DNA of 64,000 nt, taken from NCBI RefSeq assembly GCF_014203735.1, contig NZ_JACHJQ010000004.1:682001-746000 (forward strand). Direction: 5' to 3'. Shown here piece by piece: positions 2,438 through 57,112 of the stretch (position 1 is its first letter; every line of letters begins with the position of its first letter). A model generated the notes under the pieces. That model was not told the DNA's origin, did not search any database, and saw nothing but the letters and a program-made list of their open reading frames with translations. The translations under genes and the position numbers were made by a program. The stretch comes from Actinophytocola algeriensis. Lineage in GTDB: Bacteria > Actinomycetota > Actinomycetes > Mycobacteriales > Pseudonocardiaceae.

Positions 2438-3616
2438 GTGGCTGGATCCGTCATCGTCGCCGGGGCCCGCACCCCCATCGGCAGGCTGCTCGGCTCCCTC
2501 AAGGACTTCACCGGAGCGCAGCTCGGCGGCGTCGCCATCAAGGCCGCGCTGGAACGGGCCGGGGTCGCGCCGAAGCAGGTCGAGTACACGATCATGGGCC
2601 AGGTGCTGACCGCGGGCGCGGGCCAGATCCCCGCCCGCCAGGCCGCCGTCGCGGCGGGCATCCCGATGGACGTGCCCGCGCTGACCATCAACAAGGTCTG
2701 CCTGTCCGGCCTCGACGCGATCGCGCTCGCCGACCAGCTGATCCGGGCGGGCGAGTTCGAGATCGTCGTCGCGGGCGGCCAGGAGTCGATGACGCAGGCG
2801 CCGCACCTGCTGCCGAAGTCGCGCTCGGGCTTCAAGTACGGCGACGTCACCATGCTCGACCACATGGCGCACGACGGCCTGTTCTGCGCGTTCGACCAGG
2901 TCGCGATGGGCGCCTCGACCGAGAAGTACAACTCCCGCTACGGCGTGACCCGCGAGGCGCAGGACGCGTTCTCCGCCCGCTCCCACCAGCGCGCGGCCGC
3001 CGCGATCGCCGAGGGTCGGTTCGCCGACGAGATCGCGCCGGTGACGATCCCGCAGCGCAAGGGCGACCCGGTCGTGTTCGACACCGACGAGGGCGTGCGC
3101 GCCGACACCACCGCTGACGGTCTCGGCAAGCTGCGTGCCGCGTTCGCGAGCGACGGCACGATCACCGCGGGGTCCGCGTCGCAGATCTCCGACGGCGCGG
3201 CCGCGGTCGTGGTCATGAGCAAGGCGAAGGCCGAGCAGCTGGGCCTGTCGTGGCTGGCCGAGATCGGCGCGCACGGCGTGGTCGCCGGCCCCGACGCGAG
3301 CCTGCACGAGCAGCCGTCCAACGCGATCAAGGCCGCGCTCGACAAGGCGAAGCTGTCCGCGTCCGACCTGGACCTGGTGGAGATCAACGAGGCGTTCGCC
3401 GCGGTCGGCCTGGTGTCCACCGAGAAGCTCGGCATCAGCGAGGACATCGTCAACGTCGACGGCGGCGCGATCGCGCTCGGCCACCCGATCGGTGCGTCCG
3501 GCGCGCGGCTGGTCGTGCACCTGGCGTACGAGCTGAAGCGGCGCGGCGGTGGCCTCGGCGCGGCCGCTCTGTGCGGCGGCGGCGGCCAGGGCGACGCACT
3601 GTTGTTGCGTGTCTGA
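2438..3616 (+). CDS. Acetyl-CoA acetyltransferase (thiolase)
   Basis: A 392-residue thiolase that condenses two acetyl-CoA to acetoacetyl-CoA or runs the reverse reaction. The nucleophilic cysteine is in [14 protein letters not shown] (Cys88 from the chosen start), the catalytic histidine in [14 protein letters not shown], and the second cysteine in [11 protein letters not shown]. The start is GTG at 2438, preceded by TTGGAGG with 6 nt spacing; the open frame continues upstream, but that part lies antisense to the epimerase gene. The TGA stop is embedded in the first copy of a 31-bp tandem repeat that separates it from meaB. Confidence 0.93.
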
Positions 3617-3760
3617 GCGGAGCTTGCGGAGCGAAAGTTATCTTCGGGCGGAGCTTGCGGAGCGAAAGTTATCTTCGGGCGGAGCTTGCGGAGCGAAAGT
3701 TATCTTCGGGCGGAGCTTGCGGAGCGAAAAGTTATCTCTGAGCGGAGTTTGCGGAGCGAT
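3614..3760 (+). repeat. 31-bp tandem repeat at the thiolase-meaB junction
   Basis: The unit CGGAGCTTGCGGAGCGAAAG plus TTATCTTCGGG starts at 3618, 3649, 3680 and 3711, followed by a diverged copy at about 3743. The period of 31 is not a multiple of three, so the frame changes in each unit, as expected for untranslated DNA. It begins at the thiolase TGA and ends with GCGGAGCGA immediately before the conserved part of MeaB. The core matches the repeats at 9969, 17277 and 42807 and, more loosely, those at 39246 and 56985. Confidence 0.92.
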
Positions 3761-4712
3761 CATCGATACAGGCGTCTTCGATCTCGTTGAACAGGCGCGC
3801 GACGGCCGGCCGAGGGCGGTCGCGCGCCTGATCTCGCTCGTCGAGGACGACAGCCCGCACCTGCGGTCGGTCGCGGCCGCCCTGTCGCCGCTGACCGGCC
3901 GGGCCAGGGTGCTGGGGCTGACCGGACCGCCCGGGGTCGGGAAGTCGACGTCCACGTCGATGCTCGTGTCGGCGTTCCGGGCCCGTGGCCTGCGGGTCGG
4001 CGTGCTGGCGATCGACCCGTCGTCGCCGTTCTCCGGGGGCGCGCTGCTGGGCGACCGTATCCGGATGCACAGCCACACCGTCGACCCCGGCGTGTACATC
4101 CGCTCCATGGCGACCCGCGGCGCGCTCGGCGGCCTGGCGACGGCCACCCCGCAGGCGGTGCGCGTGCTGGACGCGGCGGGCTTCGACGTGGTGCTGATCG
4201 AGACCGTCGGGGTCGGACAGTCCGAAGTAGACATCGTGGCGCTCGCGGACACGACGGTGGTGCTGCTCGCACCCGGCATGGGCGACGGGATCCAGGCCGC
4301 GAAGGCGGGCATCCTCGAGGTCGCGGACGTGTTCGTGGTCAACAAGGCCGACCGCGACGGCGCCGACGCCACCGTGCGGGACCTCAAGCACGCGATGTCG
4401 CTCGGCAGGCGGGAGCTTGGCCCGTCGTGGCGGCAGCCGATCGTGCGCACGGTCGCGTCGGCCGGTGAGGGCGTCGAGGAGCTGGTCGACGCGCTGGACG
4501 CCCACCGCGACTGGCTCGTTTCCCACGGTGAGCTGGAGGTCCGCCGGGTCCGCAGGGCGGAGCGGGAGATCGAGGCCATCGCGGTGACCGCGCTGCGGGC
4601 CCGCCTGGGCAGCGTCCACGGCGGCGAGGCGCTGTCGCGGCTCGCGAAGCAGGTCGCGGCGGGGGAGACCGACCCGTACGCGGCGGCCGACCAGCTCACC
4701 GAAACGCTCTGA
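3717..4712 (+). CDS. meaB: Methylmalonyl-CoA mutase-associated GTPase MeaB (ArgK family)
   Basis: A G3E P-loop GTPase that protects and reloads the B12-dependent methylmalonyl-CoA mutase. It shows Walker A GPPGVGKSTS, the family segment AIDPSSPFSGGALLGDRIRM, switch region IETVGVGQSEVD and the guanine-specificity motif NKAD. The conserved body begins at about 3762 (IDTGVFDLVEQARDG). The start is unresolved: no ATG, GTG or TTG falls between the end of the repeats and that point. I give the TTG at 3717; alternatives are GTG 3609, CTG 3738 or an ATC at 3759/3762 just after GGAGCGA. The 3' end and identity are secure. It follows the thiolase on the same strand. Confidence 0.88.
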   Translation: MRSEKLSLSGVCGAIIDTGVFDLVEQARDGRPRAVARLISLVEDDSPHLRSVAAALSPLTGRARVLGLTGPPGVGKSTSTSMLVSAFRARGLRVGVLAIDPSSPFSGGALLGDRIRMHSHTVDPGVYIRSMATRGALGGLATATPQAVRVLDAAGFDVVLIETVGVGQSEVDIVALADTTVVLLAPGMGDGIQAAKAGILEVADVFVVNKADRDGADATVRDLKHAMSLGRRELGPSWRQPIVRTVASAGEGVEELVDALDAHRDWLVSHGELEVRRVRRAEREIEAIAVTALRARLGSVHGGEALSRLAKQVAAGETDPYAAADQLTETL

Positions 4713-4731
4713 CTCTGTCGGTGTGCCCGGC

Positions 4732-4747
4732 TACCATCCCGCGCGTG
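4732..4747 (+). promoter_or_regulatory. Leaderless-type -10 box and GTG start
   Basis: TACCAT at 4732-4737 is followed by 7 nt and then GTG at 4745, the arrangement of a leaderless actinobacterial transcript. It lies just after the meaB stop, so the downstream gene may have its own promoter. Confidence 0.45.
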
Positions 4748-5701: not shown

Positions 5702-5792
5702 TCGTGACTCGCATCACTTCGTAGGCTCTCGATTCTTCGAAGTTCACCTTTGGCTGCGAGCATGTGCCCCGCCCCTCACCCGGAAGGATCAC

Positions 5793-7841
5793 ATGGTCAC
5801 GGGACTCGCAGGTCAGGACGCGAAAACACCGGTCTCCCAGCCGGTGGGCAGAGCCGCGTCCAGCCGCAAGTTCCGCCCTGAACTGCAGGGACTCCGGGCA
5901 CTCGCCGTTCTCCTGGTCGTCGTCTACCACGTGTGGCTCGACCGGGTTTCCGGCGGCGTCGACGTGTTCATCATGATCTCCGGGTTCCTGCTCACCGGGC
6001 AGTTGACGCGCGCCGTCTCGAAGGGACGGGTCGACTTCACGGCGCACTGGGGCCGGACGATCAAGCGGCTCTTCCCGGCCGCGCTGACGGTGCTCGTCGC
6101 CGTGATGGCGGTCAGCCTGATCGTGCTGCCCGAGCCGCGCTGGTTCCAGACGATCCGCGAGGTCGTCGCCGCCGCGCTGTACTTCGAGAACTGGCAGCTG
6201 GCCGCCGACTCGGTCGACTACTTCGCCCAGAACAACGGCAAGAGCCCCGTCCAGCACTTCTGGTCGCTGTCCATCCAGGGCCAGCTGTTCATCGCGTGGC
6301 CGCTGTTGATCGTGCTCGTCGGGGTGCTCGCCAAGCGCTTCGGTGGCGGGCTGCGCACGTGGGTCGCGGCGACGCTCGGTGTCATCGGCACGGCGTCGCT
6401 CACCTATTCGATCTACCTCACCACGGTGAACCAGCCGCTGGCGTACTTCCACTCGTTCACCCGCATCTGGGAGTTCGTGCTCGGCGGCCTGCTCGCCCTG
6501 TTCGTGGACTCGATCGCGCTACCACGCGTGGTGCGGGTGGTGCTGGGCTGGCTCGGGATCGCCGCGCTCGTCAGCTGCGGCCTGGTCCTGCAGGTCGGCA
6601 CCGTGTTCCCGGGCTACGTCGCGCTGTGGCCGACGCTCGCCGCCGCCATGGTGCTGCTCGCGGGCGCCACCGACAGCCGAGCCGGTGCGGACCGGTTCCT
6701 GAGCTCCCGCCCGCTGCGGTACCTCGGCGACATCAGCTACTCGCTGTACCTGTGGCACTGGCCGGTGCTGATCTTCTACCTCTCCTACCGCGACATGCCG
6801 AGGGTCGGCATCAAGGGCGGCGCGCTGATCATCGGGGTGTCGTTCCTGCTGGCCGTGCTCACGCACCGGTTCGTCGAGGAGCCCGCGCGGAAGTCCCCCT
6901 ACGGCGAGAAGGGCGGCTGGGGCGCGTACAAGTTCGGCATCGTGCTGCTGGTGCCGGTGCTCGCGCTCGCGGGCACGTGGCAGTTCGTCACCGCGAAGCG
7001 CGCCGAGTTCGCGTTCGCCGTCGACGACCCGGACCACCCCGGCGCCGCCGCGCGCTACCCGGGCTTCCGGTACCAGGGCGCCGAGGCGGTCGAAGCGGTG
7101 CCGCCGCCGGTCGCGATCCCCGACGACTGGGGCTCGTCCGACGGCATGGACTGCGACCCCGACCCCGGCTACGGCGGTTCCATCTGCACGAGCAGGGCCA
7201 CCGGCGCCCCGGCCAAGCGCGTGGTGGCGATCGGCGACTCGCACATGCAGCAGTTCCTGCCCGCGATGCGGCCGATCGCCGAGAAGCGGAACTGGGAGCT
7301 GACCTTCTTCCTCAAGGGCGCGTGCCCGTTCTCGACCGACGTGTACATCCCGGAGCCGCAGGACTGCACCGCCTGGAACGAGCAGGCCCACGACAAGATC
7401 CTCGACATGAAGCCGGACGCGGTCTTCACGCAGGCGACCAGGGACGCGCGGGTCGGGCTGACCGAGGAGACGCCGACGGGGTACGTGTCGGAGTGGCAGG
7501 CGCTGGCCGAGGCGCGGATCCCGGTGGTGGCGGTGCGGGACACGCCGAGGCACGGGTTCGACCCGCCCGCCTGCGCGCAGACACACGGGCCGGACGCGCC
7601 GGAGTGCGCGTCGCCGCGGCTGGAGATGTTCTCCCCGACGCCGCCGTGGGCCACGGTGGCGGGCATCCCGGCGAACGTGCGTTTCGTGGACTTCACGGAC
7701 TACCTGTGCACCCCGACGACCTGCCCGCCGATCATCGGCAACGTCTGGGTCTACCGCGACTTCAACCACCCGACGGCGACGTACATGCGCTCGCTGTCGC
7801 CGATCGTCGAGGATCAGGTGCTCGCCGCGCTGAAGTGGTGA
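5793..7841 (+). CDS. Acyltransferase-3 / SGNH fusion protein (OafA-like)
   Basis: A 682-residue membrane O-acyltransferase. Residues about 25-400 are an acyltransferase-3 domain of roughly ten helices, starting with FRPELQGLRALAVLLVVVYH and the GGVDVFIMISGFLLT segment. Residues about 420-682 form an extracytoplasmic SGNH domain with the block I motif VVAIGDSHMQQFLPA and the terminal catalytic pair in the DFNHPTATY segment. Such fusions transfer acyl groups from inside the cell to sugars or peptidoglycan outside; the acceptor here is unknown. A GGAAGGA site precedes the ATG. It is convergent with the sugar ABC operon. Confidence 0.88.
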   Translation: MVTGLAGQDAKTPVSQPVGRAASSRKFRPELQGLRALAVLLVVVYHVWLDRVSGGVDVFIMISGFLLTGQLTRAVSKGRVDFTAHWGRTIKRLFPAALTVLVAVMAVSLIVLPEPRWFQTIREVVAAALYFENWQLAADSVDYFAQNNGKSPVQHFWSLSIQGQLFIAWPLLIVLVGVLAKRFGGGLRTWVAATLGVIGTASLTYSIYLTTVNQPLAYFHSFTRIWEFVLGGLLALFVDSIALPRVVRVVLGWLGIAALVSCGLVLQVGTVFPGYVALWPTLAAAMVLLAGATDSRAGADRFLSSRPLRYLGDISYSLYLWHWPVLIFYLSYRDMPRVGIKGGALIIGVSFLLAVLTHRFVEEPARKSPYGEKGGWGAYKFGIVLLVPVLALAGTWQFVTAKRAEFAFAVDDPDHPGAAARYPGFRYQGAEAVEAVPPPVAIPDDWGSSDGMDCDPDPGYGGSICTSRATGAPAKRVVAIGDSHMQQFLPAMRPIAEKRNWELTFFLKGACPFSTDVYIPEPQDCTAWNEQAHDKILDMKPDAVFTQATRDARVGLTEETPTGYVSEWQALAEARIPVVAVRDTPRHGFDPPACAQTHGPDAPECASPRLEMFSPTPPWATVAGIPANVRFVDFTDYLCTPTTCPPIIGNVWVYRDFNHPTATYMRSLSPIVEDQVLAALKW

Positions 7842-7890
7842 CGAAGGCCCCCTTCGTCGCGGTGGGTGTGATGAAGGGCCCCTTCATCAC
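7840..7890. terminator. Two palindromes between convergent genes
   Basis: Two hairpins follow the acyltransferase stop: GACGAAGG/CCTTCGTC (7840-7858) and GTGATGAAGG/CCTTCATCAC (7868-7890). They separate it from the convergent binding-protein gene and belong to the same GATGAAGGNCCCCTTC family as the arrays at 18.5 and 36.5 kb. They are probably a bidirectional terminator or a REP-like element. Confidence 0.6.
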
Positions 7891-7911
7891 GCGTGGGCGC
7901 GGCCGATGGCG

Positions 7912-8895: not shown

Positions 8896-8929
8896 GTACC
8901 CGCACCTTTCCCTTGCTTATCACCGAGTC

Positions 8930-9967
8930 CTACAACCGGTCGCGCGCCCTCCTGCGCTGCTGGTCGAACCAGACCGCGGCCACCAGCACCGCCCCTACGG
9001 CGATCATCTGCCAGTAGTCCTGGACGTGGACGATGTTGAAGCCCTTCTTCAGCACGGCCGGGATGAACACCCCGATGACCGTGCCGAGCATGGTGCCGAC
9101 GCCCCCGAACAGGCTCGTGCCGCCCATCACGACCGCGGCGATCGCGTTGAGGTTGTCGGTCGAGTGCGCCGCGATGCCCGTGGTGCTGTAGTAGGCGAGC
9201 GACATGAACCCCGCGGCGCCCGCGAGGAGTCCGGCCAGCAGGTACACCTTCAGCAGGTGCGCGGTGACGCCGATACCGGCCCGTCGCGCCGCCTCCTGGC
9301 TGGAGCCGACGGCGAACGTGTAGCGGCCGAACCTGGTCGTGTGCAACAACCACGCGGCGATCAGCGTGATCACCGCGGCCGTGATCACCAGGTTCGGGAT
9401 GCCGCCGAACGACGTGCCCGACCCGAGTGCCCGCTTGAGCGTCGTGGGGATCGTCCGGATGTCCGAACCATCGCCCAGCAAGCTCGCCGCGCCCAGCGCC
9501 GCGCCGAACGAGCCGAGCGTGACGATCAGCGGCGGCACCTTCGCGTGCGCGATGAGAAACCCGTTGACGAAGCCCCACACCAGCCCGCCCAGCACGGCCG
9601 CGACCAGTCCGGCGATGATCACGCCCCAGCCCGCGTCGATCGCGCTCCCGTTCTCCGACAACGCGTTCATGGTCTTGGCCGACACCATGCCCGCGAAGAT
9701 CAGCACCGAGCCGACGGACAGGTCGATGCCGCCGGTGATGATCACGAACGTCATGCCGACCGCGAGCACCAGCAGCACGGCGGTCTCGATCGCGAGGCGC
9801 TGGAAGTTGAACACGGTGGGGAACGCGTTCGGTGCCAGCGCGCTGAACACGATGATCAGCGCGACCAGCACGAGCGCGATCCAGAACGTGTTGGCGGTGA
9901 CCAGCCGGGCGCCGAGGCTCCTGCGCTTGAGTTGCCCGCCGTTCTCGACGGATGTCGCGGCGGTCAT
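8930..9967 (-). CDS. Sugar ABC transporter permease (RbsC/FrcC type)
   Basis: A 345-residue integral membrane permease of the CUT2 class, with 8-10 hydrophobic helices and the family segments VGMTFVIITGGIDLSVGS and LGGLVWGFVNGFLIA. The Gly-rich EAARRAGI segment near the cytoplasmic loop matches the permease-ATPase coupling region. I chose ATG 9967 (GGAG 10 nt upstream). An ATG at 9985 lies inside the junction repeat, too close to any ribosome site. It is separated from the ATPase gene by one copy of the junction element. Confidence 0.9.
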   Translation of the reverse strand: MTAATSVENGGQLKRRSLGARLVTANTFWIALVLVALIIVFSALAPNAFPTVFNFQRLAIETAVLLVLAVGMTFVIITGGIDLSVGSVLIFAGMVSAKTMNALSENGSAIDAGWGVIIAGLVAAVLGGLVWGFVNGFLIAHAKVPPLIVTLGSFGAALGAASLLGDGSDIRTIPTTLKRALGSGTSFGGIPNLVITAAVITLIAAWLLHTTRFGRYTFAVGSSQEAARRAGIGVTAHLLKVYLLAGLLAGAAGFMSLAYYSTTGIAAHSTDNLNAIAAVVMGGTSLFGGVGTMLGTVIGVFIPAVLKKGFNIVHVQDYWQMIAVGAVLVAAVWFDQQRRRARDRL

Positions 9968-9968
9968 C

Positions 9969-9995
9969 GATGGTTCGCTCCGCATGCTCCGCTCA
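9969..9995 (-). repeat. Single junction element between ABC ATPase and permease
   Basis: On the minus strand this reads TGAGCGGAGCATGCGGAGCG followed by AACCATC. The first three bases are the stop codon of the ATPase gene, and GCGGAGCG can act as the ribosome site for the permease. It matches the repeat at 39312-39338 at all but four of 27 positions. Confidence 0.8.
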
Positions 9996-10754
9996 CGCCT
10001 CCTCCTGGTGCAGTGCACCGGTCATGGCGCCGACGAGGTCCTCGAGCGTCGCGTCCTTCGCGGTGAACCGCGCCACCCGCCTGCCGAGCCGCAGCACCTC
10101 GACCCGGTCGGACACCGACAGCACCTCAGGCATGTTGTGGCTGATCAGCACGACGGCCACGCCTTCGTCGCGGACGCGGCGGATCACGTCGAGCACGCGT
10201 TCCCGTTGCACCACACCGAGCGCGGCGGTCGGCTCGTCCATGAACACGACCTTGCTCGCCCACACCACCGACCGCGCGACCGCGACGCTCTGCCGCTGCC
10301 CGCCGGACAGCGACCCGATCGGCACGTCGATGCTCTGCAGCGCCACGCCGAGCCGCCCGAACTCCTCCGCCGCCCTGCGGCGCATGGCCTTCTTGTCCAG
10401 CATCCCGAGCGCGCCGAGCACACCCGGCCGCCGGATCTCCCTGCCCAGGAACAGGTTCGCGGCCGGGTCCAGCTCGGGTGCGACCGCGAGGTCCTGGTAG
10501 ACGGTCTCGATGCCGCGCCGGCGTGCGTCGGTGGGGGAGTCGAACCGGGTCTCCGCGCCCTCGAACCGGATCGTGCCCGACGTGGGTTGTTCGGCGCCCG
10601 CCATGCACTTGACCAGCGTGGACTTCCCCGCGCCGTTGTCGCCGATCAGCGCCACCACCTCGCCGGGGTGCACGGAGAACGACGCTCCGCGCAGCGCCTC
10701 GACCGACCCGTACGTCTTGGTCAGGTCGACGGCCTCGAGGGCAGGCGCGGTCAT
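9993..10754 (-). CDS. Sugar ABC transporter ATP-binding protein, single domain
   Basis: A 253-residue ATPase energising the adjacent CUT2 permease. Walker A is GDNGAGKST, the signature is LSGGQRQ, Walker B is VVFMDEPTAAL, and the switch histidine is in VVLISHNMPEV. Most CUT2 ATPases such as RbsA carry two fused domains of about 500 residues; this one has a single domain, like FrcA of the fructose/mannose/ribose importer. That, with the isomerase next door, hints at a fructose- or mannose-type substrate, but the assignment is inferential. The start overlaps the upstream isomerase stop by 4 bp (ATGA). Confidence 0.9.
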   Translation of the reverse strand: MTAPALEAVDLTKTYGSVEALRGASFSVHPGEVVALIGDNGAGKSTLVKCMAGAEQPTSGTIRFEGAETRFDSPTDARRRGIETVYQDLAVAPELDPAANLFLGREIRRPGVLGALGMLDKKAMRRRAAEEFGRLGVALQSIDVPIGSLSGGQRQSVAVARSVVWASKVVFMDEPTAALGVVQRERVLDVIRRVRDEGVAVVLISHNMPEVLSVSDRVEVLRLGRRVARFTAKDATLEDLVGAMTGALHQEEA

Positions 10755-12771: not shown

Positions 12772-12813
12772 GGTGCCATCCATTCGACTACGCCACGACG
12801 GACCTGTCAACCC

Positions 12814-16988: not shown

Positions 16989-17396
16989 GTGTTACTGGCG
17001 TTCAGCGTTGCCCCCGCGGGCGGTGAGTCGGACAGCGTGAGCGCGGCCGTCGCGGAAGCGGTCCGCGTGGTCCGCGAGTCCGGGCTGCCGTGCGAGACGA
17101 ACTCGATGTTCACCAACATCGAGGGGGAGTGGGACGAGGTCATGGCCGTGGTCAAGCAGGCCGTGGACGTGGTGGCGGCGAAGGCGCCGAGGGTGTCGCT
17201 GGTGCTCAAGGCCGACATCCGGCCAGGGCACACCGGCCAGCTGCGGGCCAAGGTGGAGCGGATCGAGGAGCATCTGACCGAGCGGAGCTTGCGGAGCGAG
17301 CATGAGACCGAGCGGAGCTTGCGGAGCGAGCATGAGACCGAGCGGAGCTTGCGGAGCGAGCATGAGACCGAGCGGAGCTCGCGGAGCGAACCTTGA
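16989..17396 (+). CDS. MTH1187/YkoF-type thiamine-binding-like protein with repeated C-terminal tail
   Basis: A 135-residue protein. Residues 1-97 match the small ferredoxin-fold MTH1187 family ([38 protein letters not shown]), whose members bind thiamine-like ligands or act as accessory proteins. The last 38 residues are not part of the fold: they are three copies of the decapeptide [10 protein letters not shown] plus TERSSRSEP, encoded by a 30-bp tandem repeat. The tail is highly charged and probably disordered. GTG 16989 is chosen for the GAGAGGAG site upstream. Normal family length is about 95-105 residues. Confidence 0.82.
17277..17393 (+). repeat. 30-bp tandem junction repeat (coding tail)
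   Basis: Four units of ACCGAGCGGAGCTTGCGGAG plus CGAGCATGAG start at 17277, 17307, 17337 and 17367; the last is diverged. The period is a multiple of three, so the upstream gene reads through it as [10 protein letters not shown]. The core equals that at 3618. Confidence 0.92.
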
Positions 17397-18463: not shown

Positions 18464-18507
18464 GAAAGGCCCCTTCGGGACACTCAACGTCCCGAAGGGG
18501 CCTTTTC
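18464..18507. terminator. Bidirectional rho-independent terminator
   Basis: GAAAGGCCCCTTCGGGAC pairs with GTCCCGAAGGGGCCTTTTC around ACTCAAC. The TTTT run on each strand fits termination of both convergent transcripts. An identical copy lies at 36429-36472. Confidence 0.85.
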
Positions 18508-18519
18508 GCTGCGCCCGGC

Positions 18520-18697
18520 GTGATGAAGGACCCCTTCGTAACACCCGCTGCGATGAAGGGCCCCTTCGTTGCGCTCACCGTGATGAAGGACCCCTTCGTC
18601 ACGCGCGGTGTGATGAAGGACCCCTTCGTTGCGCTCACCGTGATGAAGGACCCCTTCGTCACGCGCGGTGTGATGAAGGACCCCTTCATCACACCGG
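18520..18697. repeat. Six-unit array of 30-bp palindromic repeats
   Basis: Units of TGATGAAGGACCCCTTCGTC plus about 10 bp of alternating spacer (ACGCGCGGTG or GCGCTCACCG) start at 18521, 18551, 18581, 18611, 18641 and 18671. Each unit contains the near-palindrome GATGAAGGNCCCCTTCNTC. Both strands stay open because the period is divisible by three. Confidence 0.92.
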
Positions 18698-18774
18698 GCC
18701 ACGTCCTGAAAGCGCCTTTCACGGCACGAAGGCCAACCGAGCGAAGGGCGGGAAGCCCGCCACGAAGGGGCTCC

Positions 18775-18910
18775 CTGCCATCCCGTCGACCTGGCGAAGC
18801 CCGATCACACCGGATCAAGGGGGCACCAACAACCCAAACCGGCGGCCAAACGCTGGGACCGCCCCCTTGAGCCGGTGTGATAGCCCGTAGGGAGGTCGAC
18901 GGGATGGCAG
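18775..18910. repeat. Long imperfect inverted repeat
   Basis: Two 50-nt arms (18775-18824 and 18861-18910) match at 42 positions around a 36-nt loop. The outer 18 bp are perfect (CTGCCATCCCGTCGACCT). The arm ends match the GGGATGGCAG motif in the dispersed repeat near 13010. It looks like a MITE-like or structured element without an encoded protein. Confidence 0.8.
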
Positions 18911-19124
18911 GCAGACCCGCACCCAACCGCAGCCAAACAACGAAACCCCAAGCCATCCCAGAGACCTGCCCCTCCGGCGAGGAGCCCCCGGAGGGCACAC
19001 CCGCCCACCGAGAAGCCCCCGGAGAGCAGCACGCCCGTCCCGCGACGACATCCCCAAAGCACCCGCCGAACAGATCCAGGTTGAGTGCCCCGAAACGTCT
19101 TGGGGCACGTCAGCCGTCGTCAGA

Positions 19125-22123: not shown

Positions 22124-23302
22124 TCAGGTGTCCCTGTCGTGAGGACGGCGCATTCCGGCCAACGCGACCAGCACCACCAGCACCTGGGCGGCCGCGGCCG
22201 CGTACAGGGCACCTGCCGGTTCGCCGTCGTCGACCAGCCTCCCCGCGACGGTCGTGCCGATGCCGAAGCCCGCCCACATCACGCTGAACACCCACGCGAA
22301 CGCCTCGATCCGCTGGCCGTCGGGTGTCGCGTCGCCGACCAGCACCTGCTGCAGGGTTTCGACGGGCCCGTTGACCAGGCCGTACACCACGTACGCGACC
22401 ACGACCAGCACGATCAGCACCGCCCCGGCGAGGCCCGCGCCCACGAGGACCACCGCGCCACCCGCGTGCAGCACCACCAGCTGCGTCCTGGGCAGACCCG
22501 GCCAGGTGCGGGCGCCGTAGCCGATGCCGCTGACCACCGCGCCGAGCGCCATCGCGCTGGTGAACACCCCGGCGGTGCCCTGTCCGGACGCGGCGGCCAC
22601 GGCCGCCACCTCGAGGCAGCCGAACGCGAACGTGTCGAGCACGATCATGCCGAGCAGCAGCCGCACCCGCCCGTGCCGGAGCGGCCCGAAGAACCCGCGT
22701 GCCGGCGGGTGGCCGCCCCGCCTGCCGCGCAGCGCCGGGGCGATCGCCACCAGCAGGTCGCCGAGGAGCTTGATCCCGCCGGTCACACCGACCACGGCCG
22801 GTGCCGGCATGAGGAGCAGCAGGCCGCCCGCGATCATCGGCCCGGCGAGGAACGTCGAGGTGTTGAGGGCGGCGTCGAACGCGTAGGCCGTCGGCAGCTG
22901 CTCCTCCGGCACGATCGTCGGCCACAGCCCGCGCACCACCGGTCCCGCGGGCGGCACGGAGATCCCGAGCGCGGCGGCGGCCAGGCACAGCACGAGGAGC
23001 GGCGCGCCTGCCACCAGCCCGGCGAACAGCCCGGCCCACGCGACCGTGTGCCCGGCGAGCAGGACGAGCAGGACCCGCCGGGGTTCGTGCTTGTCGGCGA
23101 GCCGCCCGCGCACGGGCCCGGCGACCGCGGTGGCCAGCGCGAACACCATGAGGATCACGCCCGCGGCGGCGTAGCCGTAGCGCTGGGTCGTGGCGACCAG
23201 CAGCGCCAGGTTCAGCATGGACGTCGAGACACGGGACAGCAGCACGGACGCCGTCAGCCTGCCGACCCCCGGGATCGTGAGGAGCTCGCGATATCGGCGC
23301 AC
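22124..23302 (-). CDS. MFS transporter, paralogue 2
   Basis: A 392-residue major facilitator with about 12 hydrophobic helices. Motif A-like GPVRGRLADKHEPRRVL lies between helices 2 and 3, and the second half has GLVNGPVETLQQVLVGD. The N-terminus RRYRELLTIPGVGRLTAS closely matches the upstream gene, so the pair arose by duplication. GTG 23302 is 8 nt beyond the upstream stop. Single-component exporters of this type often move drugs or metabolites; no substrate can be named. Confidence 0.88.
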   Translation of the reverse strand: MRRYRELLTIPGVGRLTASVLLSRVSTSMLNLALLVATTQRYGYAAAGVILMVFALATAVAGPVRGRLADKHEPRRVLLVLLAGHTVAWAGLFAGLVAGAPLLVLCLAAAALGISVPPAGPVVRGLWPTIVPEEQLPTAYAFDAALNTSTFLAGPMIAGGLLLLMPAPAVVGVTGGIKLLGDLLVAIAPALRGRRGGHPPARGFFGPLRHGRVRLLLGMIVLDTFAFGCLEVAAVAAASGQGTAGVFTSAMALGAVVSGIGYGARTWPGLPRTQLVVLHAGGAVVLVGAGLAGAVLIVLVVVAYVVYGLVNGPVETLQQVLVGDATPDGQRIEAFAWVFSVMWAGFGIGTTVAGRLVDDGEPAGALYAAAAAQVLVVLVALAGMRRPHDRDT

Positions 23303-24470
23303 ACGTCAGGCTACTGAGCCACGACCTTCGCGTGGCGCAGTCGTGCGGCGGTGAGGGTCACCGCGATCAGTTGGGCGCCGGTCGCGATCACCAGGGCGGG
23401 GGTGGTCTCGCCGGACGACGACACCTGGCCCGCGACCGTCGTGCCGACGCCGAAACCCAGCCACATCACGCTGAACACCCACGAGAACACCTCGACCCGT
23501 TGGTGCGCCTGGCTTCCCTCGCCGATGAGGACCTGCTTCACCGTCTCCACCGGACCGTTCACCAACCCGTACGCGGCGAACACCGCACCGGCGAGCACCA
23601 TCCCGCTCGACCCGGCGCCCGCCGCCAGCACCACCACACCCGCGCCGGTCAGCACCACCAGCTGCGACCCCGCGATGCCGGGCCACGTCCGCGCCCCGTA
23701 CGCGAGCCCGCTGACCACCGACCCGAGGGCGAGGAGTCCCGTCAGCACCCCCGCCGACCCGCGCCCGGACGCCGCGGCGACGGCCGCGACCTCCAGGCAG
23801 CCGTAGGTGAACGTGTCGAGCGCCATCAGCGTCAGCAGCAGCCGTATCCGCCCGTGCACCAGCGGTCCCAGCAGGTGCGTCGGCCGTTGGTGCACCGGCA
23901 TGTCCCGCACCTCGGGTGCCGTCGCCACCAGCGCGTCGCCGGTCACCTTCACCACACCGGTCACCGCAACGGCGACCTGGGCGGGCAGCACCAGCAGCAG
24001 CACCCCGGCCAGCACCGGGCCCGCGACGAACGTGGCGTTGTTGAGCGCGCCGTCGAACGCGTACGCCGTGGCCAGGCGCTCCTTCGGGATCAGCACCGGC
24101 CACAGGCCCCGCACCACCGGGCCGGTGGGCGGCACGCTCGCGCCGAGCAGCAGGCACGCCACGACGAGTACCGCCATGGGAGCCGCCAGTGCGACACAGA
24201 GCAGCACGAACGCCACCACGTGCACGGCCAGCAACGACAGCAGCACGACCCTCGGCCGGAACCGGTCGGCGAGACGGCCGCGGACCGGGCCCGCCGCCGC
24301 GTTCGTGATCGCGTACACCAGCACCAGGAGGCCCGCCGCGGCGTAGCCGTGCACCTGTGTGACCGCGACCAGCAGCGACAGGCTCAGCATCGAGACCGAC
24401 AGGCGCGCGAGGTTGTTGGCGGCCGTCAGCCTGCTCACCCCCGGGGTGGTGAGCAGTTCGCGGTAGCGGC

Positions 24471-36428: not shown

Positions 36429-36472
36429 GAAAGGCCCCTTCGGGACACTCAACGTCCCGAAGGGGCCTTTTC
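36429..36472. terminator. Bidirectional rho-independent terminator, second copy
   Basis: Identical in stem and loop to the terminator at 18464-18507. It ends glgP transcription and possibly the convergent transcript. Confidence 0.85.
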
Positions 36473-36485
36473 GCTGCGCCCGGTG

Positions 36486-36652
36486 CGATGAAGGGCCCCT
36501 TCGTAACGTCCGGCGTGATGAAGGACCCCTTCGTTGCGCTCACCGTGATGAAGGGCCCCTTCGTTGCGTCCGGTGATGAAGGGCCCCTTCGTTGCGCTCA
36601 CCGTGATGAAGGACCCCTTCGTTACGCCCGGTGTGATGAAGGGCCCCTTCAT
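36486..36652. repeat. Six-unit palindromic repeat array, second copy
   Basis: Units beginning at 36486, 36516, 36546, 36574, 36604 and 36634 have the same GATGAAGGNCCCCTTC core as the 18.5-kb array; one interval is 28 rather than 30 bp. The order of spacer variants differs from the first array, so the units have diverged or expanded separately. Confidence 0.9.
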
Positions 36653-38855: not shown

Positions 38856-39339
38856 CCGCCTGCGTGCCGCCCGCCCGGACGGGCAGGCCGGCGTCGCGGT
38901 AGCCGCGGAAGCCGTCCACCAGGTCGGTGGCCTTCGCGAGACCGAGCGCCTGCAGGTCGCGGGCGGCGAGGCTCGACGCGTAGCCCTCGTTGCAGAAGAC
39001 CACGACCGTGGTGTCCTCGGTGAAGCCGTCGATGCGGTGCTCGCCCGCCGGGTCGAGGCGCCACTCGAGCACGATGCGCTCGATCGGGACCGCGCCCGGG
39101 ATCTCGCCGTCGGCGACCCGGTTGTGCAGCGGGCGGATGTCCACCAGCAGGTGGTCGTCCGGCAGCCGGGCGACGTCGCCGGGCGCGACCCGGTTCAGCC
39201 CGGCGCGAGCCTTCGTCAGCACCTCGTCGACAGCACTGCGCGTCCGATGGTTCGTTCCGCCAGCTCCACCCTGTGCCTGATGGTTCGTTCCGCCAGCTCC
39301 ACCCTGTGCCTGATGGTTCGTTCCGCCAGCTCCACTCAC
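38848..39339 (-). CDS. Rhodanese-like sulfurtransferase with repeated N-terminus
   Basis: A 163-residue protein. The rhodanese domain occupies residues about 50-160 (DDHLLVDIRPLHNRVADGEI), with the active cysteine in VVVFCNEGYASSLAARDL, whose loop CNEGYAS differs from the usual CRxGxR. GTG 39339 overlaps the TGA of the cysteine dioxygenase gene (GTGA). From that start the first 36 residues are three glycine-rich repeats of GGAGGTNHQAQ type encoded by the 33-bp repeat. A start at GTG 39222 would omit them. Both genes act on sulfur: the dioxygenase makes cysteine sulfinate, the rhodanese moves sulfane sulfur. Confidence 0.85.
   Translation of the reverse strand: MSGAGGTNHQAQGGAGGTNHQAQGGAGGTNHRTRSAVDEVLTKARAGLNRVAPGDVARLPDDHLLVDIRPLHNRVADGEIPGAVPIERIVLEWRLDPAGEHRIDGFTEDTTVVVFCNEGYASSLAARDLQALGLAKATDLVDGFRGYRDAGLPVRAGGTQAVT
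39246..39338 (-). repeat. 33-bp tandem junction repeat between cysteine dioxygenase and rhodanese
   Basis: Three units with core GTGGAGCTGGCGGAACGAAC plus CATC occupy 39246-39269, 39279-39302 and 39312-39335. The period is divisible by three. The first base triplet of the element is the dioxygenase TGA. The core is related to the single copy at 9969-9995. Confidence 0.9.
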
Positions 39340-42191: not shown

Positions 42192-42806
42192 TCAGAGCTG
42201 ATAGGTGTGATTCTCGTACGAGTCGTCGTCGTGGCCGGTGCGGACCGTGACGTCCTCGCGGTGATCACCCCTGGCCGACGCCACGACCTGCCCGAACAGG
42301 AGCTGGTGGGTTGCCCACCCGTGCGCGGACGTGCAGGCGAGGGTGAGCAGCAGCAGGTGTTCGCCCTCCGCGATGAACGCCTGGAGCTGCAGTGCGAGCG
42401 GCCGCCGCGCCCGCACCTGCTCGACGCCCGGCACCCGCTGCGCGACGACCGCGGGCCCGAGCGCGGTGCCGATGACCAGCGTCTCCCGCACGTCCGGTCC
42501 GCCGACGTCCTCGAGCGCGTCCCGCAGCGCCGCGGCCGTGCCGTCGTCCCAGCCGGACGGCCGGTCGAGCACGACACCGGTGAGCACGGCGGGCGCCGCG
42601 CCGGGCGGCGCGACGATCGCCATCAGCTCCGCGCCCTCCCGCACGGCCGTCTCGACCGCCTCGGTCGCCAGCGCCTCCAGGTCCGCGCGCCCGGTCGACA
42701 GGCCCCGCAGCTCGCCGACGATCTCCGCGTACTCCTGGATGGCGAGCTGGGGGTGGTCGAGCGGCAGCCGCCACACGGTGTCGGGCAGGTCGATGATCAG
42801 GTTCAC
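42192..42806 (-). CDS. Hypothetical protein downstream of the WXG100-like pair
   Basis: A 204-residue protein starting at GTG 42806 with MNLIIDLPDTVWRLPLDHPQ. It is predicted to be mostly cytosolic, with alternating hydrophobic stretches (AELMAIVAPPGAAPAVLTGVV and LALQLQAFIAEGEHLLLLTLA) that suggest an alpha/beta fold. No family is recognised. It follows the large WXG100-like gene by 40 bp, with one copy of the junction element between them providing GCGGAGCG as a possible ribosome site. It could be a partner or immunity-type protein for that gene, on position alone. Confidence 0.6.
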   Translation of the reverse strand: MNLIIDLPDTVWRLPLDHPQLAIQEYAEIVGELRGLSTGRADLEALATEAVETAVREGAELMAIVAPPGAAPAVLTGVVLDRPSGWDDGTAAALRDALEDVGGPDVRETLVIGTALGPAVVAQRVPGVEQVRARRPLALQLQAFIAEGEHLLLLTLACTSAHGWATHQLLFGQVVASARGDHREDVTVRTGHDDDSYENHTYQL

Positions 42807-42849
42807 GGCTCGCTCCGCAAGCTCTGCTCGATGTCCTTCGACCCGCTCA
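42807..42849 (-). repeat. Single junction element before the hypothetical gene
   Basis: On the minus strand, the TGA of the large WXG100-like gene (42849-42847) is followed after about 17 bp by GAGCAGAGCTTGCGGAGCGA and GCC, then GTG 42806. The core differs from that at 3618 at one position. Confidence 0.75.
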
Positions 42850-44079
42850 CTTCAGGGCTTCCTTGCCGAAGTCCTCGATCGCCTTCTCCAGCTGCTTCGG
42901 TGTCGGGTTGATGCCCTGCTGCAGGAACTTCAGCTCGGCCTTCTGCTGCGGGGTCAGGTCGACGCCGGCCTTCTCCGCGATCGCCGAGCCCTTGTCGACG
43001 AGGTCCGCGTACGCCTGGTGCTGCTTGGCCTCCAGCCCGAGCCGCTGCAGCTCCGCCTTGCGGTCGGCGAGGTTCGCGGGCAGCTCGACGCCCTCCCGCT
43101 TGGCGACCTCGCGGCCGGCGGCGGTCAGGTCGCGGGACACCTTGCCGTCGAGCCCGTGCTGCCGCATCATGCCGACGTTGTCGATCAGCCCGGGCAGCGC
43201 GCCACCGCGGGCCGCGGCCTCGATGTCCTTGCGCGCGGCCCGGATCGCGGCCTTCGAACCACGCTTGGCGATGACCCGGCCACCGCTGCGGACCGCCGCC
43301 GCGGCCGTGCCGCCGCCGGGGATGACGCTGGTGCCGAGCCCGATGGCGACCGCGCCCCAGCCGGGGGCGTTGCGGGAACCGGACAGCTGCTGGCCCAGCG
43401 CGGCCAGCGAGCCGACCGCGCCGGAGCCGGTGGACGCGGCCCCGAGCACCGCGGCGGCGGGCAGCCCGACACCGGTGGCGGCGAGCCCGGCCGCCGCGGT
43501 CGCGGTGGCGAGCGACACACCGTCGGCCGCGACCGCGAGACCGTCGAGCCCCTGCACGTACCAGGTGTCGTTCTCCGGTTTGAACGGGTCGCCGTCCTTG
43601 CCTTGGCGGATCGCGTCCGCGGTGGCGTTCGCCTCGCGCAGGTGCCTGGTCTCCAGGCGTTTCGCGTCGTCGATGATCCTGGCCAGCTGCGTGCTGACGG
43701 CGGTCGACTCCGGGGTGCACGTGTCGAATGTGGACAGCTTCGCCTTGAGCTTCTTGGCGGCCGCCTCGAGCACGTCCGCGCGGGCCTGGTTGGTGGTCAG
43801 CCTGCCGAACCAGGACGACAGGGCGGTGGTGACGGCGTTGATGGCCTCACCACCCTTGCCGAGGCCCTGCGGCAGGTCGTCGCCGTGGTCGCTGAACTCC
43901 TCGGCCGCGCTGCCGCCCCACTCGGAGTCGTCGGTGATCTTCGTCGCCTCCGTCAGCCGGGGGAGCGTGGTGCTGATCGTCTCGGCGGCGGTGGCGAGCT
44001 GGAGCATCAGCGTCTTGACCGCGTCCGCCTCGCCGGGCGTGGGGTCGAACCCGAGGGCGGGGAAGGAGCGTGTCGTCAC
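42847..44079 (-). CDS. WXG100/LXG-like large protein, candidate type VII substrate
   Basis: A 410-residue protein. Residues 1-130 are helical with the central motif SEWGGSAAEEFSDHG, a WxG turn like those of WXG100-type substrates. Residues about 165-240 are hydrophobic and Ala/Gly-rich (LATATAAAGLAATGVGLPAA), possibly membrane-active. Residues 270-410 are charged and helical (RAARKDIEAAARGG, AELQRLGLEAKQHQAYADL). The layout resembles polymorphic secreted proteins, but I see no known toxin motif at the C-terminus. The GTG start overlaps the small upstream gene's TGA (GTGA). Confidence 0.7.
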   Translation of the reverse strand: MTTRSFPALGFDPTPGEADAVKTLMLQLATAAETISTTLPRLTEATKITDDSEWGGSAAEEFSDHGDDLPQGLGKGGEAINAVTTALSSWFGRLTTNQARADVLEAAAKKLKAKLSTFDTCTPESTAVSTQLARIIDDAKRLETRHLREANATADAIRQGKDGDPFKPENDTWYVQGLDGLAVAADGVSLATATAAAGLAATGVGLPAAAVLGAASTGSGAVGSLAALGQQLSGSRNAPGWGAVAIGLGTSVIPGGGTAAAAVRSGGRVIAKRGSKAAIRAARKDIEAAARGGALPGLIDNVGMMRQHGLDGKVSRDLTAAGREVAKREGVELPANLADRKAELQRLGLEAKQHQAYADLVDKGSAIAEKAGVDLTPQQKAELKFLQQGINPTPKQLEKAIEDFGKEALK

Positions 44080-46144: not shown

Positions 46145-46155
<11 letters not shown>

Positions 46156-47107: not shown

Positions 47108-47110
47108 CAT

Positions 47111-48283
47111 GTGTCGCTCCGCGAGCTCCGCGACGTGACTTACGAGTTCACCCCGGCCGACGTGCGCTTCCTGCGCTCGTCGGCCGGGGTTTCCGCTGTC
47201 GCGGCGGTTTCCGAGCTGCCGCTGACGTCGGCCAGTCTTCTCGCGGATGTCGCCACTGCTCGCCGACTGGTCGGGGAGCACGCGGGGCCCGTGCTGGAGA
47301 CCGTGCTGCTGCGCCGGCGTGCCGCGGCCAAGGTGGACTCGCCGGCTGACTGGCTGTTCACCGACACCGCGTTGCAGCAGGCGACCGCGATGCCGGTCGC
47401 GCGCCACCGCGCCGCCCGGTTCGCGGGTCACGCCGTTCATGACGTGACGTGCTCGGTCGGCGTGGACCTGGCGGCACTCGCGGAGGTCGCGGACCGGTGC
47501 GCCGGCTCGGACCTCGACGAGGTGCGTCTCGCGATGGCGGCGCACAACGTGTCCGCGCCGCTGGTCCGGGCCGACGCGCTCCGGCCGGTCACGCGGGACA
47601 TCGCGGTCTTCGTCGACCCGGCACGCCGGGACTCGGCAGGCCGCCGCCGCTGGCACGCCTCGGACTTCGTGCCGCCGCTCGACGCACTCGCCGACGCGTA
47701 CCGCGGCCGGGACCTGGCCGTGAAGTGCGCGCCGGGCATGGACTTCGCCGAGCTGCCGTGGACCGGCGAGGTGGAACTGGTGTCGCTGGACGGGCAGGTG
47801 CGGGAGGCGTGCCTGTGGACGGGTGCCTTCGCGGGCCCGGCCCGCAGGGCAACGGTCCTGCGCACGGGCAGTACGGCGTGGACGGTCACGTCCGACGACC
47901 CCGGCGACTGCCCGGTCGGCGAAGCGGGGGAGTGGCTCGTCGACCCGGACGGTGCGGTCGTGCGCGCGGGCCTGGTCCGCCAGTACGCGGCCCGGCTCGG
48001 TTTCTGGCAGCTGGACGAACGCATCGCCTACCTGACCGGCGACGCGAAACCACCCGGCGTCCGGGCGTTCCGGGTGCTCGAACAGGGCCACTACTCGGAG
48101 AAGTCGCTGCGCCAGGCGCTGCGCCGCCGCGCGGTCGGCCGCGTCGAGATCCTGGTCCGCGGCCTGGACGTCGACCCGAACACGTTGCGTCCCAGGCTGA
48201 AGCTGTCCGGCACGGAAGCGGCGACCGTCGTGCTGACCAGGGTGGGCCGGACCCCGAAGGCGTACGTGTGTACCGAGTCGTGA
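47111..48283 (+). CDS. Class I methyltransferase with THUMP-like domain
   Basis: A 390-residue protein. The SAM-binding part is VHDVTCSVGVDLAALAEVAD, then DIAVFVDPARRDSAGRR with a DPAR motif reminiscent of RNA or DNA base methyltransferases. The C-terminal part (ARLGFWQLDERIAYLTGD, then RAFRVLEQGHYSEKSLRQAL) matches the THUMP-like domain found in actinobacterial members. The start is GTG 47111, with the first codons SLRELRD. It overlaps the next gene by 16 bp. The substrate is probably RNA, by family knowledge. Confidence 0.85.
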   Translation: MSLRELRDVTYEFTPADVRFLRSSAGVSAVAAVSELPLTSASLLADVATARRLVGEHAGPVLETVLLRRRAAAKVDSPADWLFTDTALQQATAMPVARHRAARFAGHAVHDVTCSVGVDLAALAEVADRCAGSDLDEVRLAMAAHNVSAPLVRADALRPVTRDIAVFVDPARRDSAGRRRWHASDFVPPLDALADAYRGRDLAVKCAPGMDFAELPWTGEVELVSLDGQVREACLWTGAFAGPARRATVLRTGSTAWTVTSDDPGDCPVGEAGEWLVDPDGAVVRAGLVRQYAARLGFWQLDERIAYLTGDAKPPGVRAFRVLEQGHYSEKSLRQALRRRAVGRVEILVRGLDVDPNTLRPRLKLSGTEAATVVLTRVGRTPKAYVCTES

Positions 48284-51171: not shown

Positions 51172-51264
51172 CCCTGTTCCCCTTCCGTCGACCAACGTCA
51201 GGGGTCATCACAGGCCACTCGCGGCACCACCGGCCAGGCCACCGCCCGGCCATTTTGTGGCCGG

Positions 51265-52203: not shown

Positions 52204-52307
52204 GTGTCAGACGGTATCGGCCTGCTCGCTCGCAGCGACCACAGCGGGCCGCCTCCTGCCACGGTGACCACGGCTCGGTCATGTGGGGGAGGCAGGCGGC
52301 CGTCGGA

Positions 52308-52324
52308 TACGGTCACCTGCCATG
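52308..52324 (+). promoter_or_regulatory. Leaderless-type -10 box before the acyltransferase gene
   Basis: TACGGT (52308-52313) lies 8 nt before ATG 52322. Confidence 0.45.
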
Positions 52325-53463: not shown

Positions 53464-53517
53464 CGCTTTCCTCGCGGTGAAAGCGGGTCGAAAGAGGGCT
53501 CGCCAGGATCGCGGTCC

Positions 53518-54198: not shown

Positions 54199-54250
54199 AG
54201 GGTCGGATCCCAGGCAGCAGTGCCGGGCCGGTCGCGCGTCGCCGTGTGGG

Positions 54251-55498: not shown

Positions 55499-56988
55499 CA
55501 GACCAACAACCCCCGTGCGTCCAACCGCCCGAACACGCCGTCCTCCGCCCGCAGTGCCTCGGCCCGCGAGAACCGCGACCGGTGGTCCGCCCGCAGCAGC
55601 GCCGCCAGCTCCGCGAACCGGTCGCCGTGGACCTTCGCGCGCCGCCGCGCGTAGTCCGCGGCCGAGTCCTTCGTGACCATGAACGCCCAGTCGCTCGACA
55701 GCGTAAGCAGCGCCTCGCGCACCAGCTGGTCCCGCACCGGGTCCCGGTACGGCACCGGCGGCACGGCGAGGAGTTCGTCCTGCAGTGCCGCGCCCGCGTT
55801 CACCAGGTCCGACACCTGCTCGCCGTCCCAGACGCGCCAGTCCTTGCCGGAACCCCACGACGACGCGGGCAGGTCCACCGGGTCGCCGACGTGCCCGGCC
55901 TCGATCGCACCGCGCAGCGTCGTCACCCGCACCCCGGCCTCGGGCAGCGCACGCAGCACCGCCTCCAGCCACGCCGGGCCTTCGTGCCACCAGTGCCCGA
56001 ACAGCTCGGTGTCGTACGCCGCCACCACGAGCCCCGGCCGCCCGTGCCGCTCGCGCAGCGACCGCAACCGCGCGACGACCGTGTCGGTGAAGTCGCGTGC
56101 GTGCCGCCGCACCGCGATGGCCGCGAGCGCCGGGTCGTACGGCTTCTTCTCGTGCGGTGGCACGTGTTTGCCCGTCACCCGGGACGGCTTCAGCCCACTC
56201 GGGTGGTCGAACGTGTGGAAGTCGCGGTAGGCCGCGTCGCCGGGGTAGCCCGCCTTCGGGGACCACACGCGGTAGGTCACCTCGAGGTCGCGCCCGAAGC
56301 ACAGCACGTCCGACGACCCGACCGGCCGCGCCGCGTGCGTGTCGCCGTGCAGCGCCGGTCCGTCCACGAGGAACCGCCGCACACCCTCGGCCTGGTAGTC
56401 CGCTTCCATGCCCGGCGCGTACCCGCATTCGGGCGCCCAGATCCCGTCCGGCGCGCGGCCAAGCCGCAGTGCCGTGTCGTCGAGGCCGGTGCGCAGCGCG
56501 AACCGCCGCACCTCGGGCCGCAGCAGGGGCTGGAAGGGGTGGGTCGCCGGCCCGCCCAACAGCTCGATCACGCCGGAGTCCGTCATGGACCGCAGCACCG
56601 GCGAGAACCCGTGGCGCCAGCGGGTGTCGAACCGCTCCAGCGCGTGCCCGGCGGCGCGGAACTCGGCGGCCGCGAGGTCACGCAGCACCGGCTCCTCCCA
56701 CTGCCCTGCCGCGAACTGCGCGCGCAGCTGCCAGTTGCCGAGCCAGTCGTGGCAGGCGCGCAGGGCGTACGGGTCGTCGAGCTGCGCGGCCAGCACCGGG
56801 GTCACGCCGAGCGTGAGGACGTCGCGGCGGCCCTCCTCGGCGAAGCGGTGCAGCAGCTCGATCACCGGCAGGTAGGAGTGCGCCCACGCCTGGTAGAGCC
56901 ATTCCTCGCCGACCGGCCACGTGCCGTGGTGGGGGAGCCAGGGCAGGTGGCTGTGCAGCACCAGGCAGAACGAGCCCTCATCACTCAT
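55498..56988 (-). CDS. GH57 alpha-glucan branching enzyme-like protein (Rv3031-like)
   Basis: A 496-residue GH57 enzyme with N-terminal segment FCLVLHSHLPWLPHHGTWPV and catalytic regions GIWAPECGYAPGMEADY (nucleophile Glu) and VVAAYDTELFGHWWHEGP (acid/base Asp). DUF1957-type helices close the C-terminal half. Rv3031 of M. tuberculosis, of the same length, is assigned as the branching enzyme of methylglucose lipopolysaccharide. The start ATG 56988 is preceded by GAGGAG and overlaps the TGA of a 21-codon ORF. Confidence 0.92.
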   Translation of the reverse strand: MSDEGSFCLVLHSHLPWLPHHGTWPVGEEWLYQAWAHSYLPVIELLHRFAEEGRRDVLTLGVTPVLAAQLDDPYALRACHDWLGNWQLRAQFAAGQWEEPVLRDLAAAEFRAAGHALERFDTRWRHGFSPVLRSMTDSGVIELLGGPATHPFQPLLRPEVRRFALRTGLDDTALRLGRAPDGIWAPECGYAPGMEADYQAEGVRRFLVDGPALHGDTHAARPVGSSDVLCFGRDLEVTYRVWSPKAGYPGDAAYRDFHTFDHPSGLKPSRVTGKHVPPHEKKPYDPALAAIAVRRHARDFTDTVVARLRSLRERHGRPGLVVAAYDTELFGHWWHEGPAWLEAVLRALPEAGVRVTTLRGAIEAGHVGDPVDLPASSWGSGKDWRVWDGEQVSDLVNAGAALQDELLAVPPVPYRDPVRDQLVREALLTLSSDWAFMVTKDSAADYARRRAKVHGDRFAELAALLRADHRSRFSRAEALRAEDGVFGRLDARGLLV

Positions 56989-57050
56989 GGACGCTCCTCG
57001 CAGGCTCCGAGCGTCCACGGTGTCGACGATTCGCTCGCAAGCTCGCTCAT
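56985..57050 (-). CDS. Mini-ORF 2 in the methyltransferase-GH57 junction
   Basis: The second copy of a 21-codon ORF, MSELASESSTPWTLGACEER then P. Its ATG (57050) overlaps the TGA of mini-ORF 1, and its TGA overlaps the ATG of the GH57 gene (ATGA). GAGGAG lies before the next ATG within each copy. Whether the peptide is stable is unknown; the arrangement suggests a re-initiation chain. Confidence 0.5.
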   Translation of the reverse strand: MSELASESSTPWTLGACEERP

Positions 57051-57112
57051 GGACGCTCCTCGCAGGCTCCGAGCGTCCACGGTGTCGACGATTCGCTCGC
57101 AAGCTCGCTCAT
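57047..57112 (-). CDS. Mini-ORF 1 in the methyltransferase-GH57 junction
   Basis: The first copy of the same 21-codon ORF as at 56985-57050. Its ATG overlaps the TGA stop of the methyltransferase gene (57111-57109), and its own TGA overlaps the ATG of the second copy. Confidence 0.5.
   Translation of the reverse strand: MSELASESSTPWTLGACEERP

Follow-up and report, generated by a model that had tools for sequence, protein, structure and literature searches.

The junction repeats of the window, the 64,000-nt stretch of Actinophytocola algeriensis DNA analysed here, belong to a longer element that is very likely a non-autonomous mobile repeat of the MIRU type, settling in DTGA sites. MIRU stands for mycobacterial interspersed repetitive units, reportedly described by Supply et al. 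in 1997. These units are known from mycobacteria, have a DTGA target and come in sizes of 53 and 77 bp. For the present element, the target would be a DTGA in which the start of the downstream gene overlaps the stop of the upstream gene by 4 nt. The full element would supply the stop of the upstream gene, begin a relay mini-ORF in the same DTGA, carry a hairpin with an SD-like site, and supply a DTGA start to the downstream gene. Ribosomes finishing the upstream gene could reinitiate on the mini-ORF, open the hairpin, terminate at the second DTGA and initiate once more on the downstream gene, which would keep the cost of insertion and tandem growth low. Since the element holds a mini-ORF linking stop to start, it could spread without breaking genes. 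We observed the architecture, a length rule, covariation in the stem, empty sites and differences in copy number between species; translation of the mini-ORF, reinitiation and enzyme-driven movement are what we infer.

A 21-base core defines the 5' half of the element. At up to 3 mismatches it matched 12 times in the window and never in 100 shuffles, and in the whole genome (9.73 Mb, 23 contigs) it matched 312 times, while the reversed pattern matched once. At up to 2 mismatches there were 242 matches in this genome; 10 of 80 genomes had any match (this one included), and five genomes of the same genus had 76, 32, 6, 2 and 0. The position of the core was analysed in 51 stretches of this genome (1.06 Mb), most of them picked because a near-exact core or a strong hit lies in them; the genes in these stretches were those called by our own script. 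The results showed that 61 of the 82 core clusters (at up to 3 mismatches) lay in sense between co-directional genes, 11 were antisense, 7 divergent and 3 convergent, and none was inside a gene, whereas 75% of random positions fell inside genes and 7.6% were sense co-directional. The enrichment at same-strand junctions claimed in the preliminary description thus holds in these stretches, and the copies there are not scattered at random relative to genes. The TGA at the core was the exact called upstream stop in 43 of the 82 clusters. In two sister genomes, cores were also seen at a spacing of 119 bp (L169, that is G005:C163:4657-4915; G002:C4:246058; G002:C8:328054), perhaps representing a longer compound unit.

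In many single copies the core is followed by a CGGAGCCTGCGAGG motif, and the copy ends where the next gene starts. The full element is mostly 65 or 77 bp long and spans from the upstream stop (DTGA) to the start of the next gene (RTGA), and the mini-ORF inside it overlaps both neighbouring genes by 4 nt. When the 1.06 Mb were searched with nothing but the loop motif, so that no ends were assumed, there were 39 hits, of which 35 had a hairpin of at least 6 of 8 pairs. A DTGA began within 2 nt of the stem foot in 29 of these 35 (background, 3.5%), and the stem-foot position was the exact called start in 20 of 35. When the search range was widened, both ends were present in 32 of 35, and in 30 of these 32 a complete mini-ORF connected the two DTGA sites. 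As background for gene starts, NTGA was present at 362 of 906 called starts and a 4-nt overlap at 128 of 672 co-directional junctions. Full copies in tandem have a DTGA in common (56985-57112 of the window, and G001:C16:328152-328525 with a 74-bp period).

For whole-genome searches we built the model R1 from a seed alignment of 22 of 25 elements, excluding one identical copy from the window and two elements whose 3' end lacks DTGA. Because the DTGA ends are part of R1, hits with such ends are favoured, while the length rule lies outside the model and the loop-motif counts above (29/35 and 30/32) are independent of it. The 68 strongest hits in this genome ranged in length from 53 to 89 bp, and 46 had one of the two main lengths, 65 or 77 bp. 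Overlaps of 4 nt at both ends require a length of 2 mod 3, and 62 of the 68 obeyed this rule, although the copies share ancestry and the counts are therefore not independent. In these two length classes the mini-ORF measures 22 and 26 codons. Outside the stem, diversity at codon positions 1, 2 and 3 was 0.216, 0.260 and 0.215 in the 77-bp class (13 sequences) and 0.193, 0.242 and 0.227 in the 65-bp class (9 sequences), with no excess at the third position in either, indicating that the frame is kept and the peptide is not. A comparison of frame openness was uninformative for the mini-ORF, because one alternative frame starts with TGA.

The full element ends in a hairpin with an 8-bp stem and a nearly fixed loop, as seen in 22 aligned elements. 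The stem was 93.2% paired and contained 32 double-changed cells; shuffles gave a mean of 9.3 and none of 500 reached 32, and slid controls gave 1 to 4. An SD-like GGAG, GAGG or AGGA lay 4-15 nt ahead of the 3' start in 29 of 29 elements, compared with 362 of 896 for called starts overall and 97 of 185 for those lying in 4-nt overlaps, a count that is partly built in since the search motif itself ends in GAGG, and that shows position rather than independent enrichment. The GGAGCGA end of the core had been proposed as a general ribosome site; this did not hold up, since full elements have the SD-like site in the 3' hairpin instead and the downstream start lies upstream of the array at two places of the window. 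Rfam at gathering score returned no family over the element, one tRNA being the sole match (window, L149, L129). Complementarity of the stem might also be maintained by template-switch repair of quasi-palindromes, without selection and with no role for the hairpin, which we consider possible though rather unlikely. The stem is the most variable part of the element while remaining paired, and the folding energy of five single elements was ordinary (z -1.44 to 0.76), as such repair would allow; the position of the hairpin directly ahead of the start in all sizes and genomes read argues for a role. The tandem copy in the window had an unusual folding energy (z -2.75). Template-switch repair concerns the hairpin only and leaves the relay untouched.

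The model R1 gave at least 149 hits in this genome at E <= 0.01, a lower bound with 150 candidates scored. In the same genus, hits at E <= 0.001 numbered 121 in G005, 87 in G002, 15 in G001, 14 in G003 and 1 in G004. Among the best 82 hits of four sister genomes, 73 had a length of 2 mod 3, and a complete mini-ORF element was found at 28 of 29 loci read (30 fetched). In a sample of the order, 76 of 200 genomes (this one included) had a hit at E <= 0.01, compared with an expectation of about 2, provided that the rough E-values are valid; 17 of 20 fetched hits from other genomes were complete, and 24 of 30 strong hits had the 2 mod 3 length. Of 39 named genomes, 14 had a hit: Kutzneria sp. CA-103260 had 58, Actinokineospora iranica 38, Labedaea rhizosphaerae 22, Mycolicibacterium frederiksbergense 9 and Micromonospora musae 4, and nine other bearers had 1 or 2 each, several of them weak. 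Seven genomes of Nocardioides, Kribbella, Cellulomonas and Cryobacterium gave one weak hit (L230), without DTGA at either end. In four named bearers, 8/8, 27/27, 20/26 and 13/16 strong hits followed the length rule, and the design is the same in Mycolicibacterium, Kutzneria, Labedaea and Actinokineospora. A wider proposal, to which we give somewhat less than an even chance, is that of an order-wide superfamily of tiny mobile elements, with classical MIRUs maybe one branch, which would be kept by the 2 mod 3 frame rule and a relay gene with a freely drifting peptide and would move by an enzyme that duplicates the DTGA target.

The preliminary description had suggested comparing the same junctions in related species. 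The results showed that copy number differs and that, at 5 of the 7 full-length sites compared, relatives of the same genus have a bare ATGA or GTGA overlap. The GH57 junction of the window is a bare ATGA in all 3 same-genus genomes covered, the site of L149:8129 is ATGA or GTGA in 5 of 5 relatives, and that of L149:6029 is one or the other in four. At L129:8124 and L129:8650, G002 has GTGA and the other four genomes have short spacers, and at L149:9373 and L149:10607 the relatives mostly have 1-nt overlaps (TGATG, TAGTG); both of these observations count against the MIRU-type reading. A 32-bp half element at L149:4651 corresponds to ATGA in 4 of 5 relatives. At L149:6029, where this genome has a 65-bp element, G002 (L251) carries a different insert of 96 bp, as if the site had been used twice.

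These comparisons bear on the alternative of a selected regulatory device, in which hairpin and mini-ORF tune downstream translation in the manner of an attenuator and copies persist through a benefit to the host. A covarying stem placed on the start region and the same design maintained in several families would suit such a device. However, within a single genus the copy number spans 1 to at least 149, relatives have no element at the compared sites, the flanking genes are unrelated and the peptide has no codon-position signal, and we therefore regard a selected device as improbable. Given this range of copy number and these relatives without the element, a selfish element shaped to be harmless is the simplest reading, and some copies may benefit the host. 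The earlier idea of a mobile sequence tolerated because translation signals are preserved fits well, as does the tandem growth; the selected coupling device offered as its alternative is incompletely separated from it.

An inert repeat could also insert anywhere between genes and survive where it is harmless, so that the junction and frame rules reflect survivorship without any site preference. In agreement with this, arrays of the 5' module also occur in antisense, divergent and convergent positions. Full elements behave differently: 27 of 30 are in sense between co-directional genes, 3 are divergent and none is antisense. The DTGA at the foot, the 2 mod 3 lengths and the empty DTGA overlaps suggest a site rule, to which purging of harmful insertions may add, making an inert repeat quite improbable.

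Half copies, which consist of the 5' module alone, are less strict in orientation than full elements. The 3' part is missing in 52 of the 82 core clusters, and this, like the 11 antisense clusters, counts against the MIRU-type reading. Of these 52 half copies, 22 have a DTGA able to start translation, while 19 have CTGA and 11 have no TGA, so that no relay from the first TGA is possible in the latter two classes. Among the 22, a relay through 4-nt overlaps reaches an ORF of 80 codons or more in 11 cases (with a single step in 7, by way of several mini-ORFs in 4), in-frame reading leads into a long ORF in 8, and 3 are broken. The half copies with CTGA or no TGA and the broken ones also count against the MIRU-type reading. 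At 1500 other gene ends with DTGA, used as control, we found 181 one-step relays, 632 readings into a long ORF, 498 broken and 189 other cases, indicating that relays are enriched in the half copies and in-frame reading is not. Shortened copies are often arrays of 30-33 bp, and many preserve the relay or can be read through in frame.

No transposition event was observed, which counts against the MIRU-type reading. In other genomes, 48 of 57 elements had the same D base at their two ends (p 6e-7), which hints at a duplicated DTGA target. In the elements of this genome the agreement was 17 of 28 and not significant (p 0.26), which also counts against that reading. No longer autonomous copy was present in the 1.06 Mb sampled, where a 5' end lies no farther than 75 nt from each of the 35 hairpins. 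A REP/RAYT-type element moved by a Y1 (IS200-like) transposase with the hairpin as its recognition site would likewise be small, hairpin-bearing, dispersed in many copies and directed to a tetranucleotide target, but the mini-ORF relay and the placement between start and stop codons differ, Y1 enzymes are not known to make a target duplication, which the D-base agreement suggests, and the Y1 transposase domain PF01797 has no match at E <= 0.001 in this genome and none in 12 of 13 other bearers searched (M. peregrinum being the only one with a match), so that we rejected this mobiliser and hold the explanation to be extremely improbable. The absence of Y1 from this genome counts against the MIRU-type reading as well. 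Carriage on plasmids or phages was also considered; neither collection gave a match at E 0.01 with one 77-bp copy as the query, a short query that makes this weak evidence.

A review describes MIRUs as mobile-looking units that insert at start codons and have an internal ORF coupled at -4 nt (PMC12548453). Set against that account, the present element resembles them in its DTGA at the stem foot (29/35) with empty overlaps at 5 of 7 sites, and in an internal ORF that overlaps the neighbours by 4 nt (30/32 elements of this genome, 28/29 of sister genomes). The orientation matching the flanking genes (27/30 full elements) and the tandem copies at some loci, as in the window and in G001, are further likenesses. 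A MIRU motif was present in 89 of 297 genomes of the genus of M. frederiksbergense, and the loci inspected by eye contained ATGA-to-ATGA units 53 bp in length, along with a single 77-bp unit. Unlike the MIRUs, the present family is found in families outside mycobacteria, carries a 3' hairpin whose stem covaries around a fixed loop, and has many half copies forming arrays of 30-33 bp. The sequence differs as well: on 27 MIRU loci, R1 gave E of about 1-10 at the MIRU positions and its best match, E 0.25, elsewhere. The element thus appears to work like the mycobacterial MIRU while apparently forming a sequence family of its own, with R1 giving no sequence link between the two.

Direct repeats of TAACTGA in marine Beggiatoaceae are similarly numerous and intergenic, with a proposed post-transcriptional role, but their unit has seven bases and the opening of the abstract mentions no relay ORF (PMC4679880). 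A literature search, mostly at listing level and with thin coverage of subscription journals, found no report of elements like the present ones outside mycobacteria. Here a MIRU-like design is abundant, variable between close species and spread over several families, which makes filled and empty sites, target duplication and the frame rule directly readable. Culturable bearers exist outside pathogens, and the copies form a natural library of relay ORFs for reinitiation tests.

In the window, the core or a diverged form of it was found at all six junctions of the preliminary description, and the tandem periods of 31, 30, 33 and 62 bp were reproduced at four of them. Its claim that the element occurs nowhere else stands for close copies; a copy with 4 mismatches lies at 47113-47133 (minus strand), antisense to both neighbours. 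The TGA is the upstream stop, as had been stated, at four of the six places (3614, 9995, 39338 and 57111), but not at 42807-42849, where the upstream stop is 17 nt ahead of the core, nor at the 17277 array, which has no TGA. Pfam agreed on thiolase, MeaB, ABC ATPase, permease, cysteine dioxygenase, rhodanese, methyltransferase and GH57; the gene called MTH1187 matches the thiamine-binding PF01910, and the gene called WXG-like gave a T7SS_signal match below the cutoff and nothing else. For one protein encoded in the window, the nearest named relatives mostly belong, by their names, to Pseudonocardiaceae. The junction arrays themselves were described correctly, while the relay mini-ORF and the in-frame fusions had been overlooked. 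By reading, translation is kept open at all six places: 9996, 42850 and 57112 are relays, 39339 and 3609 give N-terminal extensions, and 17277 gives a C-terminal tail.

The only full-length element of the window is at 56985-57112, in two 62-bp copies on the minus strand; the other five places have the 5' module only. Copy 1 (57047..57112) has the relay mini-ORF MSELASESSTPWTLGACEERP*, from ATGA to ATGA, and a hairpin stem in which 57071-57078 pairs with 57051-57058. Copy 2 (56985..57050) follows in tandem, the ATGA between them being common to both, and the stop of its mini-ORF overlaps the GH57 start ATG at 56988. The 29-bp element at 9964..9996 (minus strand, GTGA to ATGA) has the mini-ORF VSGACGANHR*, which bridges the ABC ATPase stop and the permease start, and the 44-bp element at 42803..42850 (minus strand, GTGA to GTGA) has the mini-ORF VSGSKDIEQSLRSEP*; the orthologous junction of either was absent among the fetched stretches of relatives.

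The remaining three places are arrays read in frame. The 33-bp array at 39241..39339 (minus strand) forms an N-terminal extension of the rhodanese-like protein, beginning at a GTGA that overlaps the cysteine dioxygenase stop; compared with G002, which has a bare GTGA at this junction, the gene contains exactly 99 additional nt in frame. The 30-bp array at 17277..17396 (plus strand) forms a C-terminal tail of the thiamine-binding (MTH1187-like) protein; this tail is shorter in G002. Such extensions at both termini are a warning for annotation. The 31-bp array of the 5' module at 3609..3760 (plus strand) includes the thiolase stop TGA (3614-3616), and the GTG at 3609 reads in frame through it into meaB. 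One copy is kept at this junction in G002 and none in four other genomes of the genus. In the region 3609-3780, meaB can thereby start at a GTG (3609) overlapping the thiolase stop by 8 nt; the G002 copy (L151) is, by eye, out of that frame, with no ATG, GTG or TTG start nearby.

Other repeats were also observed in the window. A second family, with 30-bp units around GTGATGAAGGACCCCTTCGT, forms arrays at 7838-7897, 18505-18692 and 36463-36650. An inverted repeat at 18767-18824 and 18861-18918 has 58-nt arms that are 83% complementary and 36 nt apart, and long direct repeats about 1.18 kb apart and 72-73% alike at 22441-24136 are probably adjacent paralogous genes.
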